Positions 4,201 through 40,066 of a stretch of 41,607 bases of DNA are shown piece after piece. The stretch lies in IMG/VR virus record IMGVR_UViG_3300048833_000041, positions 1 through 41,607 of that record. One strand, written 5' to 3'. The position numbers and the translations under genes are program-made. Each line of letters begins with the position of its first letter. The first letter of the stretch is position 1. This DNA is from a virus. Under the pieces are notes generated by a model that was not told the DNA's origin, made no database searches, and saw only the letters and a program-made list of their open reading frames with translations.

Positions 4201-7200
4201 TTGTTTAATTGCTGTGCTAGCTCGGCTAGTTCTTGTGGAGTCTTAGCCAGGGCACTACGCTTGTCAGCTTTCTTAGCTTCTTGGTAAGCGTTCATTGTGC
4301 TGGATCGTCCAGCTAGTTTAGCTCGTTGGCGTTCAATAAATGCTGCACGTTGTTCAGGTGTCATTGGTATACCAGCTTGACCCTGATCACCTTTAGTGGC
4401 TTTCAGGCGCTCGGCTTCAGTCATGGTCTGGTTGCCTTCGATCTTTGTTGCACCTGTTGGACGGCCTTGTCCTTCAAGTGATTTACGCATAGCAATATCT
4501 GCAGGGTCTTGTGACTCTTCTAGTTTCGTGCTTATTTCAAGTGCATTGCTGTTACTACTGGACTTACTTTCAGGGAAGTAACCAAACTCATTAAGGTCAT
4601 CTCCAGCCCATCGTACATCTTTGGCTGGAACGGTAAACTTGTGTACTGGCGTACCTTCTTCTTGGCTCTCAGCTTTTGCATAAGTTGGTGATAACGTAAC
4701 CCAGTCACCACGATTTAGCTCATTCTTAGGTGACGCACGATAAATAGTAACTTTGCCATTTGGGTTGTCCCTATATTTTTGAATAGCTGCTATAGACTCT
4801 TGGTCTGCTTTAGTGCCAGATTGTGCATAATATTGTGGATTATCATAAATGTCACTAGGTGCAAACGTATCACCGTCTACTTCTTCTAATAAGTTGTGTA
4901 GTGGTGAACCTTCAGTAGGTCTGTGCTGCATACCATAAGTATCTTTTTTAACTTCAGTTTTTTTAATGATATACATATGTTTGTCACGGTCATACTGTTG
5001 CTCAAGCTGGCTAGGGTCTACATCTTTGAATCCGTACTCTGTACCAGCTCTGTTCTGCGTCCAGTGTCGTAGTGAGTCGACATTATCCCACACCCACCTA
5101 GCGTCTTCTGCATTGGCGTGATCAAAATATACACGCTGCTTACCTTCTGGTACTGGGGTAGCTTCGGCTTTTTTAATTAACTTACTCATGGTTACATTGT
5201 TTTTAATATCAACGGTTGTAACTTTAGGTGCGTCTTTACTGCGGACTACTCGATTGTCTTTTGTTGCATATTTACCTTGAGCGTCACGTGGTTGCGGTGT
5301 AACCAGTACTGGGTTTCCATCTAGATCGAACTTAACAGATCCAGTGCCATCAGGTGTATTTAATCGTAGGCCATCGGCATTAGTGCTCTTCTCTTTGACA
5401 CGTAGTTCTTGCGGTATATCATTGCCCCTACCTTGCTTAATGGGCATGATTAGTGCAGCTAGTTTACCGTTCTTATATACCTGGATCGGATCAAGATTAG
5501 TGCCTGGCATGTAGTATGTTCCGCCAGGTACAAAGTGTTCAATCATGGCTACATAATTGGCTTGCACAACAGACTGTGTGCTACCGCTTGTAAATACTGC
5601 GTATGTTATACCATCAGAGTAGTAGCCTTCGATCTTAGCTGGCTTACCTTTAACGTCCCATTTGTTGGTCTTTATAAGATCGAACAATTTTGGTGCTTGA
5701 TCCTTATGCTCGGCATACTGCATATCCAAGTTCTTTTGAGCTTCTTCTTGCGCCTGTGCCATCTTAAAGTCACTACCTGCTTTTCGTTGGATAGTCTTTA
5801 CATAATCTGCTTTATGCTTTTTATCGATAACTTCATACATTTCATTGAGTGCAGTTTTATCCAAGATTGCGGTATAGCCATCAGTAAAGAAGCCATTGAG
5901 CTTACCACCATATAACATTGCTGGCCGTGAATCATCTAGGGTATAACCATTCTGCCATCGACCTACCTTATTAGCAACAGATTGAGTGCCTTTAATTACC
6001 GTCTTTGTTTCAGCTAGTGTGTCGCTAATCTGCTTTGGCGATAACTTCTCGGCTGTCTTGCCGTACTTATCTTGTGCAGCTTTTTCAAGTGGTTGTAGGG
6101 CACGCTTAACAGAGTTTTTACCTAGTGGCTTGACCCGTTTTGCAGGCTTGCTCTTTGATTTTACAAGAGGCTTTTTGACCTCTGTTTTTGTCTTGTCTGG
6201 TTTAGTCTCGGCCTTCGTAGTTTTAAGCTGTTCACCTACCCACTTATTAGCTTCAGCTTCAGTCTTGAAGTTTGGTGACGTTGCTGCGGTATCAAAACCA
6301 CCAGTATCTCGGCCAACACGATCTCGTACAGTGTTACCAAGTCGGGCTACGTATTCAGTACCACCGTCTTGAGTTTTAATCGTTACAATCTTGTAGTCTT
6401 TAGACTCGGCTTTCTTGATTGGTCGCATTGCACCCTTTTTACGTGGCGCTTCCTCTACCTTAGTAGTCTCATCGGTCTCCACATTGGTTGGTGTAACTTC
6501 AGGTTTAGTTGGTTTTTCAACTGGTTTGTCTTTGGTCTTCTGATCACTAGCCTTCCATTTGGTAGCGAACTCCTCTTCCATTGCTTTTTGTTGACCAACT
6601 AATTCATCAATCTGTAGTTTCAATGGTGGTTGCTGTGCCTTTGGTAGGCTCTCCATTTGCTGCGTAAGTTGTGTAACTTTATCTTCAGCTTCCTGATATT
6701 TTTGTGCATAGTTATTTTCCCAGTCCATACCAGACTCGGTTGGTTCTACTGCAGGTGGTGCTTGTTCTTGTTCAATTTCTGGCTGTGGTTGCACCCTTAC
6801 GTCCTGTGGTAGTCCAGATTGTGTCAATACTTTACCGTATTCGTCCACTATAGGTGGTTGGCCTTGTTCTTGTGTTTGATCTATCGGCTGACCAGTTTCA
6901 TCAACTTGCTGCGTTTGATCAACTGCACCACCTTCTTCTTGTCTCGCCTGATCAACTATCTGCTGGAGTTCTTCTTCGGTCGGCAATTTTTCACCGATCT
7001 TTTCTTCAAGATACTGTCCTGCCTTATCTGCGTCCTCTGGCTTAACGCCTTGCTCCTGTAAACTCTGTGAGTAGGCTTGACCAATACTTGCACCACCACC
7101 CAACACAAAGCCATATGCACCAGACTCTAGTGCTCCCAGTGTAGCCTGCCTCCAGTCAACGTCTTTATAAGTAGCCGTGAAGCCACTGGTACTCATATCC

Positions 7201-12087: not shown

Positions 12088-12974
12088 ATAACCTCATAGT
12101 TTCTTCTTTGATGTATATACCCACCACGTAAACGAATTGGCCGTGTATATTGTGAAGCGGTCTTTGATGAGTAGTTAGCCTGGCAAGACGCAAGCGCTTC
12201 AATAAAAGAACTCTTGAGCGCCCTAGCTGCGTTCCAGTCTCTACGTCGCTGGTAGTATCGGTACAGTGCATAATCAATTAGTGACTCATGGAACTCTTCT
12301 GGTATGTCGGGTAGTTCACCAATTGTATAGCTCAATGTGTTGGCTGTTGCGCCAGCATAAGTATTCTCCAAGGTAAGTGTATTAGCGTCTACAAAAGCTG
12401 CTATCTTATACCACATACCGTCACCATTAGGATCATTAACCTTAAGTGATCGCCCAACCATAGCTGCGGTAAATGTAGTGTCTGCTCCTATTACGGTTGC
12501 TGAATTAAGTGTTACGGTGATTGTTCCTGTCGTATAGTTGGCTGCGCTCATATCACGCATACGACGCTCGTAGTTGATACGGCCTGCGTTCGTTCCGTTG
12601 GCTGATGGTATAGGATAGATACCAAACTCATCATTGCCACGGACATAGAAGAACTCAGGTATATTAGATGTATCGACAGTCTCGTTTAGTAAGTTCCAGG
12701 TGTCTTCATCTGGCACTTCTTGCAGTACGTAGCTTGTGCCACCAATCGTCACAACTAGTGACTTCATGCGTATACAATCTTCTGGTGTCTGGTAGTATTG
12801 CTGATCTTCGACTAAACTAAACGTCTTATTAGTATTGCGCCACTCACGGTTAAGGATAGCGCCAAACTGTTTAGCTCCCTGATTAAGTGCACGCTTGATA
12901 AGAGTCAAGCTATCTGCGCTTGCGTCTTCAGTTTGAGCCTGGCTCTCTTCATATAGTTCTTGGAAGGTTATCAT
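12084..12974 (-). CDS. Head-tail adaptor (tail tubular protein A-like)
   Basis: 296 aa. The N-terminus (FQELYEESQAQTED ... LIKRALNQGAKQFGAILNREWR) and the C-terminal helices (EEFHESLIDYALYRYYQRRRDWNAARALK) flank a beta-rich insert. Helical ends plus a central beta domain are typical of podovirus adaptor/gatekeeper proteins that ring the portal exit. It is the first gene of a unit driven by late cassette 3 (SD CGGAG) and is followed by the 629-aa tail protein. Adaptor call is from domain style and order. Confidence 0.7.
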   Translation of the reverse strand: MITFQELYEESQAQTEDASADSLTLIKRALNQGAKQFGAILNREWRNTNKTFSLVEDQQYYQTPEDCIRMKSLVVTIGGTSYVLQEVPDEDTWNLLNETVDTSNIPEFFYVRGNDEFGIYPIPSANGTNAGRINYERRMRDMSAANYTTGTITVTLNSATVIGADTTFTAAMVGRSLKVNDPNGDGMWYKIAAFVDANTLTLENTYAGATANTLSYTIGELPDIPEEFHESLIDYALYRYYQRRRDWNAARALKSSFIEALASCQANYSSKTASQYTRPIRLRGGYIHQRRNYEVI

Positions 12975-15582: not shown

Positions 15583-15603
15583 TATTAATCCAACTGACCT
15601 GCT

Positions 15604-29189: not shown

Positions 29190-29464
29190 GGCGCATAATT
29201 CCTGAGACGCTTTTCTCGCTCTTTCATGTTGGCAATCATGGCTTGTTCTGGTGATGGCCGTCTGATCCCTCCAGTATCACTACTAAGATCTATTGGTTCG
29301 TTTGTCCCACTTTGTACCTTTGTGACACCTGGACGCACAACTCCTGCACGTTCGTACTCTCTTTTGTCCTTTAGACGCTCTGCTATTGTCTTAACGTAGT
29401 CCAGTACGGTACGGCCATAATAGCCTAGCAGTAAGCCTACAATAAGTGTTAGCAGTTCAGTCAT
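29186..29464 (-). CDS. Membrane-anchored small protein
   Basis: 92 aa with an N-terminal hydrophobic segment (LLTLIVGLLLGYYG, about 4-17) and a charged cytoplasmic-type tail (RPSPEQAMIANMKEREKRLR). Start overlaps the groEL stop by one base (TAATG), so expression is coupled to groEL. It might tether an assembly step at the membrane; that is a guess. No family recognised. Confidence 0.65.
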   Translation of the reverse strand: MTELLTLIVGLLLGYYGRTVLDYVKTIAERLKDKREYERAGVVRPGVTKVQSGTNEPIDLSSDTGGIRRPSPEQAMIANMKEREKRLRNYAP

Positions 29465-31101
29465 TACATACCTTTCGTTATCTGCACTTGCTCTAATTGA
29501 TATTGTCGATCAATTAGTATGCCACCTTGTAGTGTGGTACATATACCTGCGACTGAACAGGCGTTCTCAATAGCGCTCATCAGTACCTTTGCTGGATCGA
29601 TAATGCCGTTGCTCAGTAGATCGATAGGCTGATCAGTCATCTCTTTGACGTTGAAGCCGTATCCCCTCTTGGCTGCCTGTACCTGGCTCAGTCTGTAGCC
29701 ACCGTCTTCACCTGAGTTAGTCATGAGCTGAATGAATGGCTTGGCTATAGCTTCTATCACACACTGGAAGCCTTGTAGTTCATCTGGTGATAGTTCGGCT
29801 ATGTCGGCTACTGTGGTGCTGGTCATCTCTTTGGATAGCTGCGCTAGGGTAACTGCTCCACCTGGGACAATACCGTCTTCTTTGGCTGCACGTGTAGCGT
29901 GCATTGCGTCTTCTACTCGAAACTTCATCTCTTTGATCTCTGACTCAGTTGCACCACCTACACGGATAATACCGATTTTACCCTGGAGTTTAGATAGTCG
30001 CTTCTCCATGCGCTCTTTTTGGAACGCACTGTACTTGTCTGACTGCATTTGCGTCTTAAGGCTATCAATGCGTAGATCGATGTCTTCTTGAACACCGCCA
30101 CCTTGTAGGATAGTTGTGTCTCCACGTGTAACCATGATCTTACGTGCTTCACCTAAGTAGTCGGCTGTGACTTTATCTGAAGGTAGTGAACTAGGAATTA
30201 GCTTACCGCCTGTAACGATCGCTACGTCCTCTAGGAATGGTAATACCTGATCACCATATACTGGTGGGTTGACTACACATACTTTGACCTTGCCTGCAAT
30301 GTTAGTGAGTGCACACGTCTCAAGCGCTTGGCCTGATATGTTGCCAATGATTAGCACTGTCTTATGCTCAGTCTCTTTATATACAGTCTCAAGTATAGGT
30401 ATGATGTCCTGGTTAGCACTGATCCGCTTCTCTAGTACAACAACGCTGGCGTTCTGGAGTACTGCTTCTTCACTCTCTTTGTCGGTAACGAAGTGCTCAA
30501 TAGCGTATCCCTTTTCAAAGTAAAGTCCTTCTACTACGTCTTGAATAACGCCTAGTCCGTCGTACTCTTCAATAGATATACCTACGCCACCTACCTTAAG
30601 AATAGTGTCGGCTACGAGTTTACCTACTTCAGGATCGCTTGCACTAATTGTGGCTACTTTTGCTAGATCTTTGTCTGCTACTGGCTTTGCTAGGCCACTT
30701 ATTGCGTCTTTGAGTATGTATGCTGCTTTGTCGATACCACGTCGGATTGCCATAGGGTTATAGCCTGCTGCAATACGTTTGTTGGCTTCATTCATAATGT
30801 GATAGCCAAGTAGGATCGTGACAGTTGTACCGTCACCTGCAGTATCATTGCTCTTCTTGCTGGCCTGGATCAATAGATCTGCTCCAATGTCTTCTAGCTT
30901 ATCTTCTAGTACAATATCTCGCACGATAGATACACCATCATGGCTGATTACGTATGATCCGTAACTCTTCTCTAATGCTACGTTACCACTTGTTGGACTA
31001 TAGGCTGCTGCTGCTGCTTCGTAGACTTTCTTAGCTCCCTGGATAGCTTTTTGTCGAACTTCATCACCTGTATACACGTTTCGTACATCACCCCTAGCCA
31101 T
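29464..31101 (-). CDS. groEL: Phage-encoded chaperonin GroEL (Hsp60)
   Basis: 545 aa, full length for a group I chaperonin (E. coli 548). It folds proteins in an ATP-driven double ring with GroES. Conserved: NVALEKSYGS, DGVSIVRDIVLEDK, the ATP loop NDTAGDGTT with the Asp equivalent to D87, VEDAMHATRAAKEDGIVPGG with the Asp equivalent to D398, and GIIDPAKV with the Asp equivalent to D495. Differences: the usual LGPKGRN loop reads YSPTSGN, TKDG reads SHDG (the Lys equivalent to K51 is His), and the Gly-Gly-Met tail is absent. The ATPase is probably active but nucleotide contacts differ. Start overlaps the groES stop (TAATG). Confidence 0.93.
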   Translation of the reverse strand: MARGDVRNVYTGDEVRQKAIQGAKKVYEAAAAAYSPTSGNVALEKSYGSYVISHDGVSIVRDIVLEDKLEDIGADLLIQASKKSNDTAGDGTTVTILLGYHIMNEANKRIAAGYNPMAIRRGIDKAAYILKDAISGLAKPVADKDLAKVATISASDPEVGKLVADTILKVGGVGISIEEYDGLGVIQDVVEGLYFEKGYAIEHFVTDKESEEAVLQNASVVVLEKRISANQDIIPILETVYKETEHKTVLIIGNISGQALETCALTNIAGKVKVCVVNPPVYGDQVLPFLEDVAIVTGGKLIPSSLPSDKVTADYLGEARKIMVTRGDTTILQGGGVQEDIDLRIDSLKTQMQSDKYSAFQKERMEKRLSKLQGKIGIIRVGGATESEIKEMKFRVEDAMHATRAAKEDGIVPGGAVTLAQLSKEMTSTTVADIAELSPDELQGFQCVIEAIAKPFIQLMTNSGEDGGYRLSQVQAAKRGYGFNVKEMTDQPIDLLSNGIIDPAKVLMSAIENACSVAGICTTLQGGILIDRQYQLEQVQITKGM

Positions 31102-31391
31102 TATTTATCCTCCTTGCTTACTGCCATTATTCTTGATTCCATAAAGAGTGCATAGCCACGGCCATATAATTCTGGTGGTGTGTCACCTTCTGCTGCTTGT
31201 TTCATAATGATCACTGTATCACCTACTTTGGTCTGTGTTGGTACGAAAACACCACTTTGATGTCTCCCTTCGCCTACTGCAAGCACTTCGTAGTATTGTT
31301 TAGTGTCTGATATGTTACCAGTTGATACTACTCCTGTGTCTACTTGGATCTCTTTCCCTAGTACATAATCGAACTTTGGTATGATCTTCAC
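31101..31391 (-). CDS. groES: Phage-encoded co-chaperonin GroES
   Basis: 96 aa, the usual length. IIPKFDYVLGKEI and YYEVLAVGEG ... GVFVPTQTKVGDTVIIMK are the GroES beta-barrel signature. The mobile loop differs from the bacterial consensus: the IVL tripeptide that binds GroEL is replaced by VVS in DTGVVSTGNISDT. That suggests it is tuned to its own GroEL or to the host's. Start has SD AAAGGAAT-like upstream; the gene lies 5 nt after the HNH gene and overlaps groEL by one base. Confidence 0.88.
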   Translation of the reverse strand: MKIIPKFDYVLGKEIQVDTGVVSTGNISDTKQYYEVLAVGEGRHQSGVFVPTQTKVGDTVIIMKQAAEGDTPPELYGRGYALFMESRIMAVSKEDK

Positions 31392-32678: not shown

Positions 32679-32900
32679 TTACTTAGTAAATTGCTTAAAC
32701 AAAACGACCACACCAAACACTGCCTGTGGTGCTGCAAGGATCAGTGGGATATAACCTTCTGTACCCATTGCAATTACGGTAGTTGTGTAGGCAATACTTG
32801 CTACTACGAAAAGTAACAGTATACCAATTATACCATTATAGTTACGTGCCTTTTTAATTTTAGGCGCTTTTGTGTTGTTAGTTTTATCTTGTTTTGACAT
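32679..32900 (-). CDS. Small two-span membrane protein
   Basis: 73 aa: basic N-terminus (about 1-22, Lys-rich), two hydrophobic segments (GIIGILLLFVVASIAYTTTV and IPLILAAPQAVFGVVVLF). Both termini probably cytoplasmic. SD AAAGG 6 nt before ATG. It has its own TTGACA promoter and an SD region with 15 nt of exact complementarity to the plus-strand RNA candidate at 39653-39711. It could be a holin-like or superinfection-exclusion protein; not determinable. Confidence 0.7.
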   Translation of the reverse strand: MSKQDKTNNTKAPKIKKARNYNGIIGILLLFVVASIAYTTTVIAMGTEGYIPLILAAPQAVFGVVVLFKQFTK

Positions 32901-32928
32901 TGTAATCCTTTCAATTAATTACTCGTTC

Positions 32929-37006: not shown

Positions 37007-37562
37007 TTGTGTAATCCTTTAATAACTTATTTATCTCTAAATAGTTTATCATTTCTCCACCGTGAGTGATGATCTGCTCCAGGGCATACTCTGCGTTACT
37101 ATCGTGCAGGTATTTGATCCCTCTAGCGACTACCTCTCGGTATGGATCAAAACAGATATACTGGCCGATAGTTGCGTGTGGCCGTAGTAACTTGTACAGG
37201 TCAAGCTGCCAGGCTTCTATGTAGCTACTTGGTGTACCAATACCACATTTGTAGTCGGTGATCCAGTCTCCGTCTTCCATGTCGATGATCCCACGGATCA
37301 AGATCTGTATATCGTCGCTGAATGGTATGAGCTTCTCGTACTTCTGCTCGACTATTGGCTTAACTAGCTTTTCTGTACCTAACTCAGGGTGTATTGTACC
37401 TGTGGCTTGTGTCCAGTCCGCCCACTGTTTGTGCTTGAGTTTACCCAGTTCTAAGTAGGGGTTTTCTGGTAATTCTTTACCCAGGTACATTCCAATTGCG
37501 TCTTCAAACCGCTTCTGTTCCCAGGCATGTAGTATCGAGTAAGATAGTTTTACGGTTTTCAT
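36960..37562 (-). CDS. PD-(D/E)XK nuclease (RecB/Cas4-like)
   Basis: 200 aa. YLELGKLKHKQWADW with H44, D94 in IRGIIDMEDGDW, D103-Y-K105 in ITDYKCG and QLDLYK (Q119, Y123) match the His, Asp, (D/E)xK and QxxxY motifs of RecB/Cas4 family exonucleases. The partner annealase lies two genes upstream, so the pair forms a phage recombination system. Confidence 0.85.
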   Translation of the reverse strand: MKTVKLSYSILHAWEQKRFEDAIGMYLGKELPENPYLELGKLKHKQWADWTQATGTIHPELGTEKLVKPIVEQKYEKLIPFSDDIQILIRGIIDMEDGDWITDYKCGIGTPSSYIEAWQLDLYKLLRPHATIGQYICFDPYREVVARGIKYLHDSNAEYALEQIITHGGEMINYLEINKLLKDYTNAVQRPSERTRKAKA

Positions 37563-37911: not shown

Positions 37912-38000
37912 TTTAGTACCCTCGGATCATTCTTATCACAAGCTACAAGGTAGTCTCCGAACAATCTACCGTGTACTAGCCTGTAATACTTAGTTTTCAT
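37908..38000 (-). CDS. 30-aa peptide between recombination genes
   Basis: MKTKYYRLVHGRLFGDYLVA followed by CDKNDPRVLK. Its start and stop both overlap neighbours as ATGA, so it must be translated if they are coupled. Unknown function; may serve mainly to hand over ribosomes. Confidence 0.6.
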   Translation of the reverse strand: MKTKYYRLVHGRLFGDYLVACDKNDPRVLK

Positions 38001-38425
38001 TTTACTGTTATCCTTAGTGACTCACCACGCTTGTCGTTGATCTCAATACCCTTTGGTAGCTTGCTATTCTTTACAACGTACTCGTCTACTAGCTTGCTAT
38101 CGACGGACTTCTTAACCTTTACAAACTTGGCGCTTGGTGTACCGTTGATGGTGTACACGTCACCTGTTTTGCTGCGAGTGATTTTAACGTGCTTACCGCT
38201 AATCACCTGCCAATCGTTGCCGTACAGCGCTTTGGCTCTGGCGTTGATCATACCTTTAGCTTCTGCTTCTACTGTCTTGATCTGGTCTTCTACATCTTTG
38301 AGCTGCTTCTTGACTACTTCTACTGCACTAAGTTGCTCAAAGAACTCTTCGTCGCCTGTTAGCTCGGTAGCCTTTTCAATTTGCTCTCGTAACCAATCTA
38401 GGTTTATTTCAGCTTCGATCTTCAT
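37997..38425 (-). CDS. Coiled-coil protein next to annealase
   Basis: 142 aa. Coiled coil at about 10-65 then a small beta domain (DWQVISGKHVKITRSKTGDVYTINGTPSAKFVKVKK in part). Starts inside the annealase gene with SD GGAGG. Often such proteins accompany phage nuclease/annealase pairs; may be a Gam- or SSB-like partner. No clear family. Confidence 0.65.
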   Translation of the reverse strand: MKIEAEINLDWLREQIEKATELTGDEEFFEQLSAVEVVKKQLKDVEDQIKTVEAEAKGMINARAKALYGNDWQVISGKHVKITRSKTGDVYTINGTPSAKFVKVKKSVDSKLVDEYVVKNSKLPKGIEINDKRGESLRITVK

Positions 38426-39041
38426 TTTGTCCTCCTACGGCTTTGGCTTCTGCTTTAATAGTTTTTTTAGCTTTCTCGATTTTCTTCTTAGCTGCTTTTG
38501 CTTTGTCGCTATTCTCGTCTGATCCTATGATCTCGATAGCCATAAACTCTTCTGGTTCGTATACGTCTGCACCGATACCTAGTTTGCTAGCGCACTTCTT
38601 CAGTAGGTCTGACTCTGCAGCTTTGATGTCGTTACCAACATCTAGCGGATCAGTACTGTTTTTCTTGAACTTGATGTCGGCTCGGCCAGTACCATACTTC
38701 TTGATAGATACCCATTGACCATCAAACCAGACACGGCCTTCAATATAGCCTTTGACGATTATCTGCTTCGTGCCTAGTGCGATCCAACCCTGGATCTCAG
38801 TGTCGGTCGTGGTGATAACAATATCCCAGTTGAAGCCAAACACTGAGTCTAATACTTTGCGAACATAACTAGCCTTAATGTAAGTCCATTGACCGCCACC
38901 TTTGGCTGGCCGTGTGTACTTGTATTTTGGTTGAGTAGAGTTCCATAGCTTCTGGATCTGGTTCTGGTTTAAGACACTCTTTGTTCGTGTCACCTGGTTT
39001 AGTTCCAATTGTAGTGCTTGGATCTCTCTTGCTTTTGCCAT
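38409..39041 (-). CDS. Rad52-family single-strand annealing protein
   Basis: 210 aa. YTRPAKGGGQWTYIKASYVRKVLDSVFGFNWDIVI, VSIKKYGTGRADIKFKK and AAESDLLKKCASKLGIG (each given in part) match the Rad52/22-type phage annealase core, then a Lys/Ala-rich tail. It anneals ssDNA in recombination-driven replication and repair, with the PD-(D/E)XK nuclease downstream. SD GGAGGAAG; shares one base with the upstream stop. Confidence 0.85.
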   Translation of the reverse strand: MAKAREIQALQLELNQVTRTKSVLNQNQIQKLWNSTQPKYKYTRPAKGGGQWTYIKASYVRKVLDSVFGFNWDIVITTTDTEIQGWIALGTKQIIVKGYIEGRVWFDGQWVSIKKYGTGRADIKFKKNSTDPLDVGNDIKAAESDLLKKCASKLGIGADVYEPEEFMAIEIIGSDENSDKAKAAKKKIEKAKKTIKAEAKAVGGQNEDRS

Positions 39042-39205
39042 TAGTCTTCCTCCTCGATTAATTCGTTTTCTTCATTTATAGCGAGACCTACTGCACGTTC
39101 TGCTTTGTATAGCTCCTCTTCTAGTCCAGTTGTGTCAAAGTACGTAGATTTGAATACAACCTCATCATTAACTTTTGCTATTAGTACGTACTCTATTTCG
39201 TCCAT
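39041..39205 (-). CDS. 54-aa acidic protein
   Basis: MDEIEYVLIAKVNDEVVFKS and then an acidic helix ending ENELIEEED. The ATG at 39205 with SD GGAG is preferred; a longer frame upstream overlaps the next gene and lacks an SD. Both ends are TAATG overlaps. Unknown function. Confidence 0.6.
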   Translation of the reverse strand: MDEIEYVLIAKVNDEVVFKSTYFDTTGLEEELYKAERAVGLAINEENELIEEED

Positions 39206-39363
39206 TATTCGTCTCCTTCTATTACTAGCGCACAATAGATACATTCTCCGCCTTGGATATAGTGATCGCACGTCCAGTACAGGATCTTTGTGACATTGTT
39301 TGTTTTAGTGAATATTGCCTTATCGTTCTCTTTGTACCATGGTTCGTGTACTGCTATCTTCAT
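39205..39363 (-). CDS. 52-aa early protein with Cys residues
   Basis: MKIAVHEPWYKENDKAIFTK, then LYWTCDHYIQGGECIYCALV. Cys 34, 43 and 46 with His 36 could hold a metal. Joined to neighbours by ATGA and TAATG overlaps, which supports it strongly although short. Confidence 0.65.
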   Translation of the reverse strand: MKIAVHEPWYKENDKAIFTKTNNVTKILYWTCDHYIQGGECIYCALVIEGDE

Positions 39364-39556: not shown

Positions 39557-39585
39557 GGTGTAATCCTTTCATTTATTACATTACT

Positions 39586-39614
39586 AGAATAATCCAAGTT
39601 ATGCTGTATGTCAA
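39586..39614 (-). promoter_or_regulatory. Main early promoter
   Basis: Minus strand TTGACA (39614-39609), 17-nt spacer, TATTCT (39591-39586); start near 39579. The consensus -35 and spacing indicate recognition by the host housekeeping sigma factor, suited to immediate-early transcription. Confidence 0.8.
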
Positions 39615-39640: not shown

Positions 39641-39711
39641 TATAATAGGTGTGCCAGATCATGGGACTTTCTCTGCTTGAGTTGTAATCCTTTCAACGTG
39701 ATCTGGCTTTT
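39641..39711 (+). ncRNA. Plus-strand hairpin RNA with anti-SD loop (candidate sRNA)
   Basis: TATAAT at 39641-39646; predicted start about 39653. The RNA would be GTGCCAGATCA, a 37-nt loop, TGATCTGGC, TTTT: a 9-bp perfect stem (39653-39661 with 39699-39707) followed by U's, so promoter and terminator enclose about 58 nt. Inside the loop GTTG/CAAC closes a smaller loop TAATCCTTT. The 15-mer TTGTAATCCTTTCAA (39682-39696) is exactly complementary to the SD region of 32679-32900; 13 nt match at 39559-39571 and 11 nt at 37010-37020. No ORF. Confidence 0.6.
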
Positions 39712-39717
39712 AGGTTG

Positions 39718-39741
39718 AAAAAAAAGACACGTACTGTGTCT
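39718..39741 (-). terminator. Strong intrinsic terminator in control region
   Basis: Minus-strand RNA: AGACAC, loop AGTAC, GTGTCT, then eight T (39725-39718). It ends the structured non-coding transcript. Confidence 0.88.
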
Positions 39742-39770
39742 CTGTTCGTAGTTTGTTCTCTTGACAAGTG

Positions 39771-39956: not shown

Positions 39957-39984
39957 TTGACAAAGTGTTATCTTTTGCTACAAT
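39957..39984 (+). promoter_or_regulatory. Consensus plus-strand promoter for a 43-nt RNA
   Basis: TTGACA (39957-39962), 16-nt spacer, TACAAT (39979-39984, preceded by TGC). Predicted start near 39991, where the direct repeat TTCGCAAAATAAA begins. Confidence 0.65.
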
Positions 39985-39990
39985 TAAAGT

Positions 39991-40034
39991 ATTCGCAAAA
40001 TAAACGTCTAGCACCACGATACGGTGCTTTTTTC
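39991..40034 (+). ncRNA. Very short plus-strand RNA candidate
   Basis: From the predicted start to the terminator AGCACC-N7-GGTGCT plus TTTTT (40010-40033): about 43 nt. The 5' end ATTCGCAAAATAAACG is complementary to two sites in the opposite transcript. No ORF. Could be antisense RNA or a by-product of an origin or operator. Confidence 0.45.
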
Positions 40035-40066
40035 TTTGTCTAGTTATTTAAGTTTCGCAAAATAAA
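39992..40066. repeat. Two 13-bp direct repeats TTCGCAAAATAAA
   Basis: Copies at 39992-40004 and 40054-40066, 62 bp apart. Each lies just downstream of a predicted start site (one plus, one minus); the second is in the loop of the 9-bp inverted repeat 40042-40071. They look like a repressor or initiator binding pair. Confidence 0.6.
40010..40033 (+). terminator. Plus-strand intrinsic terminator
   Basis: AGCACC (40010-40015), loop ACGATAC, GGTGCT (40023-40028), followed by T's to 40033. No T-run on the other strand. Confidence 0.75.

Follow-up and report, generated by a model that had tools for sequence, protein, structure and literature searches.

A virus genome whose genes lie almost wholly on one strand, and which carries a promoter-like box and a hairpin on the other, raises the question of whether a regulatory RNA is made there and which genes it would regulate. 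We addressed this question in an IMG/VR virus record of 41.6 kb (41,607 nt), the whole of which was analyzed and is here called the window (W). Coding capacity is on the minus strand almost throughout; the first-pass annotation had placed all protein genes on the strand opposite to the hairpin. The encoded proteins include a GpA-type terminase and portal, a transglycosylase, HNH nucleases (all from a protein scan) and, in the early operon, a Rad52-type annealing protein (PF04098, E = 8e-7). A phage GroEL (PF00118) is also encoded at 29464-31391 (-), with a GroES-like 96-aa ORF ahead of it. No integrase or repressor was present among the window proteins scanned, and the protein scans found no antirepressor or lysogeny module.

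We consider it probable that the hairpin is a phage-encoded antisense small RNA (sRNA) that blocks ribosome loading on a few promoter-proximal phage mRNAs. The sequence elements, the fold prediction, their recurrence in nine phages and the co-variation of loops with ribosome-binding sites (RBSs) are observations; transcription, pairing in the cell, repression and timing are inferred.

The hairpin element

The proposed sRNA spans 39653..39711 (+), has a fold z of about -4 and has homologous elements in relatives. Its putative promoter consists of a -10 box only, TATAAT at 39641..39646 (+), which recurs in eight related elements; the window contains no good -35 for it. Six bases separate this box from the first stem arm, GCCAGATCA (39653-39661, +), which forms 9 bp with TGATCTGGC (39699-39707, +). 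The arms enclose a loop (39662-39698, +) and are followed by a U4 tail (TTTT, 39708-39711, +). The perfect TATAAT, the 9-bp stem and the terminal U's that had been annotated at 39641-39711 are all confirmed, and four terminal U's make a weak terminator for this phage. The early promoter, TTGACA-17-TATTCT at 39586..39614 (-), stands back to back with the sRNA promoter, in keeping with the annotated placement of the hairpin as divergent from the main early promoter. To the other side, a terminator-like hairpin (39723..39743, -) would guard the sRNA gene against read-through from the right.

The loop carries an antisense stretch, TTGTAATCCTTTCAA (39682..39696, +), that is complementary over 15, 13 and 11 nt to RBSs on the minus strand and includes the anti-Shine-Dalgarno (anti-SD) core CCTTT (39689-39693, +). 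The window RNA folds at -21.3 kcal/mol, with z = -3.3 to -4.0 relative to dinucleotide shuffles. The core had been assigned to an inner 9-nt loop; such a loop (GTTG-TAATCCTTT-CAAC) is possible, whereas the fold of lowest predicted energy pairs UCC with GGG. The anti-SD is partly paired in that prediction, which counts against the explanation that we prefer.

Predicted target sites in the window

The longest match is to a 73-aa membrane protein gene (32679-32900, -; promoter TTGACA-18-TAATAT), which adjoins the phage transglycosylase 6.7 kb from the hairpin. The first-pass annotation had found the 15-mer TTGTAATCCTTTCAA again on the plus strand at 32900-32914, and this is correct: on the minus strand, 32900..32914 comprises the RBS and the first base of the start codon as a 15-nt exact complement of the loop. 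From the promoter position, the mRNA would start about 24 nt ahead of the ATG. The ortholog of this gene in a relative (L003/G001) has the same kind of RBS site.

The second site is the RBS of the early leader ORF in the adjacent divergent operon (39559..39571, -), where the 13-nt match to the leader SD reported at 39559-39571 is borne out as an exact complement. By complementarity to the loop, this RBS is second best of the 64 gene starts in the window genome. The leader ORF encodes 22 aa (39556-39488, -; start ATG 39556), and its stop overlaps the start of a 43-aa ORF (39491-39360, -) as ATGA, an arrangement that suggests translational coupling of the two. A 70-aa ORF listed from ATG 39572 is less likely than the 22-aa ORF to be the leader. 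Both target genes have sigma70-like promoters of their own, with predicted mRNAs that start about 20-25 nt before the ATG.

A third match, of 11 nt at the start of an HNH gene (37010..37020, -), is present as annotated, but the HNH gene was dropped as a target. The site, AAAGGATTACA, lies within the coding sequence of the upstream nuclease gene, at its 3' end, where it encodes a conserved K-D-Y, and the match is therefore probably incidental.

Within the window, AAAGGATTA occurs four times, on the minus strand only (three RBSs and the hairpin), against an expectation of 0.44. None of the other CCTTT segments of the genome equals the complementarity of the hairpin to its top two gene starts (p = 0.016, n = 63). 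Two checks had been proposed with the annotation. The comparison with shuffled loops is favorable, as the window hairpin with shuffled flanks gives p = 0.003 for complementarity to gene starts. The ranking of RNA-RNA hybridization against gene starts provides weak support only; long wobble-rich duplexes dominate it.

Related elements in other phages

Related contigs, here labeled with L and G numbers, were collected with the Rad52-like protein as query. The hairpin architecture, comprising TATAAT, an outer stem and an anti-SD near the 3' arm, was found in eight viral contigs besides the window: L003/L012 (G001), L008 (G005), L009 (G006), L002/L010 (G007), L011 (G008), L056 (G011), L081/L082 and L106 (G017). 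The search for these elements asked for a -10 box with an anti-SD loop after it, which partly selects for both features; it did not ask for a loop that matches an RBS of the same phage.

In 9/9 contigs, a perfect TATAAT stands shortly ahead of the outer stem on the anti-SD strand, and no convincing -35 for the sRNA promoters was seen across the nine phages. The hairpin is followed by U8 in G001 and by U5 in both G005 and G008, while G007, L082 and G017 have a separate terminator close behind the element. The elements are usually divergent from the early/Rad52 operon. In G005, G006, G011 and L082, the element and the gene from which it diverges (rad52, or the small gene preceding it) have promoters a short distance apart; the G007 element is separated from rad52 by an HNH gene; and the G008 element is in tandem with a 65-aa membrane-protein target, on the same strand and upstream of that target's promoter. 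In L003 (G001), whose Rad52 is 60% identical to that of the window in alignment, the element reads TATAAT - ATCAAGCGGAG ... GTGTATCCTTTCAA - CTCCGCTTGAT - TTTTTTTT and is located on the opposite strand, just upstream of the first early gene. Two L003 genes have the RBS GAAAGGATTACAC, namely the first early gene and the 73-aa protein ortholog.

For the seven elements folded, z ranges from -1.8 (G005) to -5.2. In most of the predicted folds, the outer stem comprises 8-13 bp, the 5' side carries a small inner hairpin, and the anti-SD precedes the 3' arm and is left largely unpaired. By inference, these models suggest an exposed anti-SD toehold, with the inner hairpin opening afterwards. A MAFFT alignment of the elements was too poor for a covariance model.

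Several other hairpins were not counted. That of G012 (L060), at 15600 on the minus strand, has its 12-nt match at a doubtful TTG start. A hairpin at about 37980-38038 (-) in MW202692.1 (L038-L040) can pair through its loop with the RBSs of three genes (309 aa, 67 aa and 136 aa), with matches of 14, 13 and 12 nt, and is a possible tenth case; it was left out given that it lies antisense within the gene annotated as toprim, has TAAAAT in place of TATAAT, lacks a U-run and matches an RBS motif, AGTAAGGAGC, that is common there. Second hairpins near the same site in G005 and G007 have no specific RBS partner. A search with the target proteins of G006 and L082 retrieved one more contig, L101. Its protein is identical to that of G006, which would make it the G006 phage itself or a near one, and it has no new element.

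Other repeats were observed in these genomes. An element recurring in five phages consists of a -10 box, an 11-17 nt sequence from about +1, a terminator hairpin and an exact second copy of that sequence. It is found at 39979-40066 (+) in the window, 4511-4615 (+) in L008 (G005), 29201 (-) in G007, 13253 (+) in G009 (5517-5575 in L004) and 821 (+) in G011. There are six matches in the contigs (that in L087 is doubtful) and none in reversed control sequences, and the element resembles a short RNA with a second copy of its 5' end immediately beyond the terminator. At 3300-3420 of L003, downstream of a lysozyme-like gene, each of two -10-like boxes has one arm of a perfect 13-nt inverted repeat (GAGCTCTTAACAA/TTGTTAAGAGCTC) behind it; the arrangement looks like a paired operator. 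L002 contains a run of 15-nt repeats at 12114-12578 that encodes (Q/H)TSVV repeats in a 121-aa ORF.

Co-variation of loops and ribosome-binding sites

The complementarity between loop and RBS extends beyond the SD in most of these phages: 15 + 13 nt in W, 13 + 11 in G006, 14 + 10 in G011, 10 + 9 in G008, 11 in L082 and, as bulge-adjusted scores, 12 + 10 in G001. In G005 and G007 it is only 8 nt, which alone is no better than chance. The motifs vary among phages and agree within each phage. The RBS motif is TTGAAAGGATTACAA in W, CATAGAAAGGATT in G006, AGAAAGGTCTA in L082, TAAGAAAGGATACA in G011 and, at the starts of the 65-aa and 43-aa membrane proteins, AGGCACAACA in G008; the motifs of relatives (e.g. 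AGGCACAAC, CATAGAAAGGATT, AGAAAGGTCTA) are far from AAAGGATTACA. When loops and RBSs were permuted among phages, with the target chosen by position only, 4/40,320 pairings equaled the true one. These ties arise because G005 is nearly equivalent to G007, and W to G001. The permutation was also made in a 7-phage version.

G006 (89-aa protein) and L082 (93-aa protein) provide a direct example: the two proteins are orthologs (46% identity, E = 2e-21) with different RBSs. Each RBS fits the loop of its own phage, with scores of 11 and 12 against cross scores of 7 and 9. This is the compensatory change in loop and SD that the first-pass annotation had proposed to look for in relatives. The annotation would also have been refuted by loops that drift while SDs stay fixed, and the opposite is seen: the loops of the eight further contigs match their own RBSs. 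Its reading of the hairpin as a trans-acting phage sRNA is accordingly supported by the co-variation, with expression and repression remaining inferred.

The same conclusion was approached from the target side, by scanning viral contigs for GTAATN{4,12}GAAAGGATTACAN{0,4}ATG without regard to any hairpin. This motif was detected in 14 contigs, two of them already known (G001, G002). L106/G017, which is among the few others with a promoter before the motif, has a divergent hairpin immediately upstream. The element runs on the minus strand from 12624 and has TATAAT, an 8-bp stem, a loop with GTGTAGTCCTTTCA and a separate terminator right behind it; 13 contiguous pairs (one G-U) can be drawn with TGAAAGGATTACA at 12701. 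The next gene resembles the 76-aa gene of the window at 39041-39271, as judged by reading the translation only, and on that likeness the locus appears syntenic. We give the most weight to the loop-RBS permutation together with this case.

RBS cassettes of the same kind occur in G002, G015 and G016, where no such hairpin was seen in the sequence examined. Promoter-leader cassettes of the GTAAT...GAAAGGATTACAAATG type are repeated in G015 (L113; 25632 and 32470) and G016 (L115; 7438 and 15779), and such a cassette may in itself be inherited as a unit of expression. A GTAAT/ATTAC stem on the mRNA side of the target leaders was considered and dropped: folding was clearly better than shuffles in 1/7 only, and the G011 leader has GTAAT without ATTAC.

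Rankings of gene starts within each genome are consistent with a specific match. The gene adjacent to the element is in the top 1-3 of 37-78 gene starts in 7/7 phages (Fisher p = 1.2e-5). Across the seven phages, the corresponding values are 5e-6 when the flanks are shuffled with the anti-SD core fixed and 2.8e-4 when other anti-SD segments of the same genomes serve as the null. Caution is needed, as the ranking metric was fixed only after the data had been seen. An initial exact-match test gave p = 0.04 against a badly masked null, contaminated with segments antisense to RBSs, and was replaced by the later ranking test. The statistics also ignore kinship; since the motifs differ between phages, shared ancestry is disfavored as an explanation.

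Alternative explanations

One alternative is that a shared RBS consensus and a chance or relic copy account for the complementarity, leaving the hairpin as a dead inverted RBS with no regulatory role. The promoter-linked RBS leader cassette does recur, in some phages without a visible hairpin, and the other strand of the element in G006 and G011 still has a start codon behind the SD-like stretch. In most phages, including W, there is however no start codon at the proper distance on that strand, and relics should neither retain TATAAT, stem and loop in nine diverged phages nor track changes in the RBS; we regard this origin as unlikely. Co-variation outside the core also bears on the idea of a general anti-SD decoy, in which the RNA would mimic the 3' end of 16S rRNA and dampen all SD-led mRNAs of host and phage. 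Such an effect would suit G005 and G007, with complementarity little beyond the SD core (8 nt), but the other seven phages match past the core and single out two or three genes, which makes a decoy quite improbable. Least credible is a role in cis, on the minus strand or as DNA, in which the hairpin would be an attenuator, an operator or a leader structure of the early operon. The hairpin does adjoin the early promoter, and its minus-strand fold is also stable (-19.2 kcal/mol). Against this, the strand with the anti-SD is also the one that bears the -10 box and any U-run, and the hairpin is upstream of the early promoter and downstream of the minus-strand terminator, so that it is absent from the early mRNA. 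In G008, moreover, the element is on the strand of its target gene and upstream of that gene's promoter.

A further possibility is not exclusive with an antisense sRNA and is a narrower form of it: a system resembling type I toxin-antitoxin modules, in which the main task of the RNA is to keep a toxic small membrane protein silent. Small membrane proteins do rank among the best targets in W (73 aa), G001 (76 aa), G008 (65 and 43 aa) and G011, though whether they are toxic is unknown. We doubt this restriction, as the best-placed targets in G005, G006 and G007 are Rad52 and soluble proteins and the early leader gene is also targeted in W and G001.

Proposed mechanism

That loop and sites change together across phages favors a genuine RNA off-switch over coincidence. 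In the antisense sRNA model, host RNA polymerase would transcribe the RNA from TATAAT, a step for which there is sequence evidence only. The product would be a single long hairpin of about 55-60 nt, transcribed divergently from the early operon and terminated at or soon after the hairpin, at a signal that is clear in some relatives and weak in W. The anti-SD on the 3' side of the loop would then pair over 13-15 bp with the RBS of short-leader mRNAs that are predicted to begin about 20 nt ahead of the ATG; co-variation supports this pairing. Such a duplex would hide the SD and block loading of the 30S subunit, as described for c4 RNA and inferred here. Acting in trans, the sRNA would be a small repressor that works on the translation of a group of phage genes; in the window, these would include the gene for the 73-aa membrane protein and that for the early leader peptide, together with the downstream ORF coupled to the latter. 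Repression could spread to the 43-aa ORF by coupling, given the ATGA overlap.

Its purpose might be to control early-gene dosage, to delay the membrane protein or to exclude a second phage. Of these, exclusion would fit the way in which loop and sites change jointly, as in P1/P7 heteroimmunity. The sRNA of a resident phage might silence the early genes of an incoming homologous phage, with escape driving the change of loop and RBS, a scenario that we hold only tentatively. If true, it would represent a multi-target and apparently repressor-free form of the c4 heteroimmunity of P1/P7.

Comparison with known systems

Rfam has no fitting family in the window at E<=1 and no match at gathering score in the loci of four relatives. 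No multi-target antisense family of this kind was found in the literature, as far as open-access papers go. To our knowledge, the phage antisense RNAs known to act against phage translation starts (c4, sar, OOP) belong to a handful of temperate model phages, with one target gene apiece. The c4 antisense RNA of P1 and P7, reportedly described by Citron and Schuster in 1990, shares a transcript with its single target and is located in an immunity region. A review lists c4, sar, OOP and aQ among antisense RNAs directed by phages at phage genes (PMC12197685). Through loops complementary to the RBS region, c4 blocks the translation of a phage mRNA, which underlies the heteroimmunity of P1/P7 (PMC12197685). 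The element described here is likewise phage-encoded, with a loop complementary to the target RBS; unlike c4, it has a putative divergent promoter of its own and matches two or more unlinked genes. Nor is an antirepressor, the kind of target that c4 has, among the candidates here, which are Rad52, small membrane proteins, the 22-aa leader ORF and short proteins of unknown function.

The sar RNA of P22 (68/69 nt) pairs with the ant mRNA and interferes with translation initiation (PMC12197685). Both are short phage RNAs against phage mRNA, with pairing inferred in our case, but sar has a single target, the antirepressor ant, and no antirepressor is among the targets here. The 77-nt OOP RNA of lambda has its own promoter and silences a phage gene, acting in cis-antisense to cII via RNase III (PMC12197685). 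The hairpin RNA is similarly short, with a putative promoter of its own, and differs in matching 10-15 nt in trans. In this respect, it can be compared with trans-encoded base-pairing sRNAs. DicF of the Qin prophage is a trans-encoded sRNA that prevents translation by short pairing with mRNAs encoded elsewhere. Short pairing of this type is common to both, by inference here, and the hairpin agrees with a trans-acting sRNA in that complementarity to mRNA starts exceeds chance and is kept by co-variation. In contrast to DicF-type sRNAs, the RNA described here would act on genes of the phage that encodes it, and its loop varies in step with them.

By analogy, the hairpin RNA would work like the c4 and sar RNAs, but its arrangement differs. 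Comparative sequence alone supports a short hairpin RNA family, in phages in which no integrase or repressor has been found so far. The pairing of a promoter-leader cassette with a promoter-hairpin of matching loop also offers a search recipe for uncultured phages. Where c4, sar and OOP each address one gene, a single RBS motif, rewritten with the loop in each lineage, would let this family silence several phage genes that are not linked.
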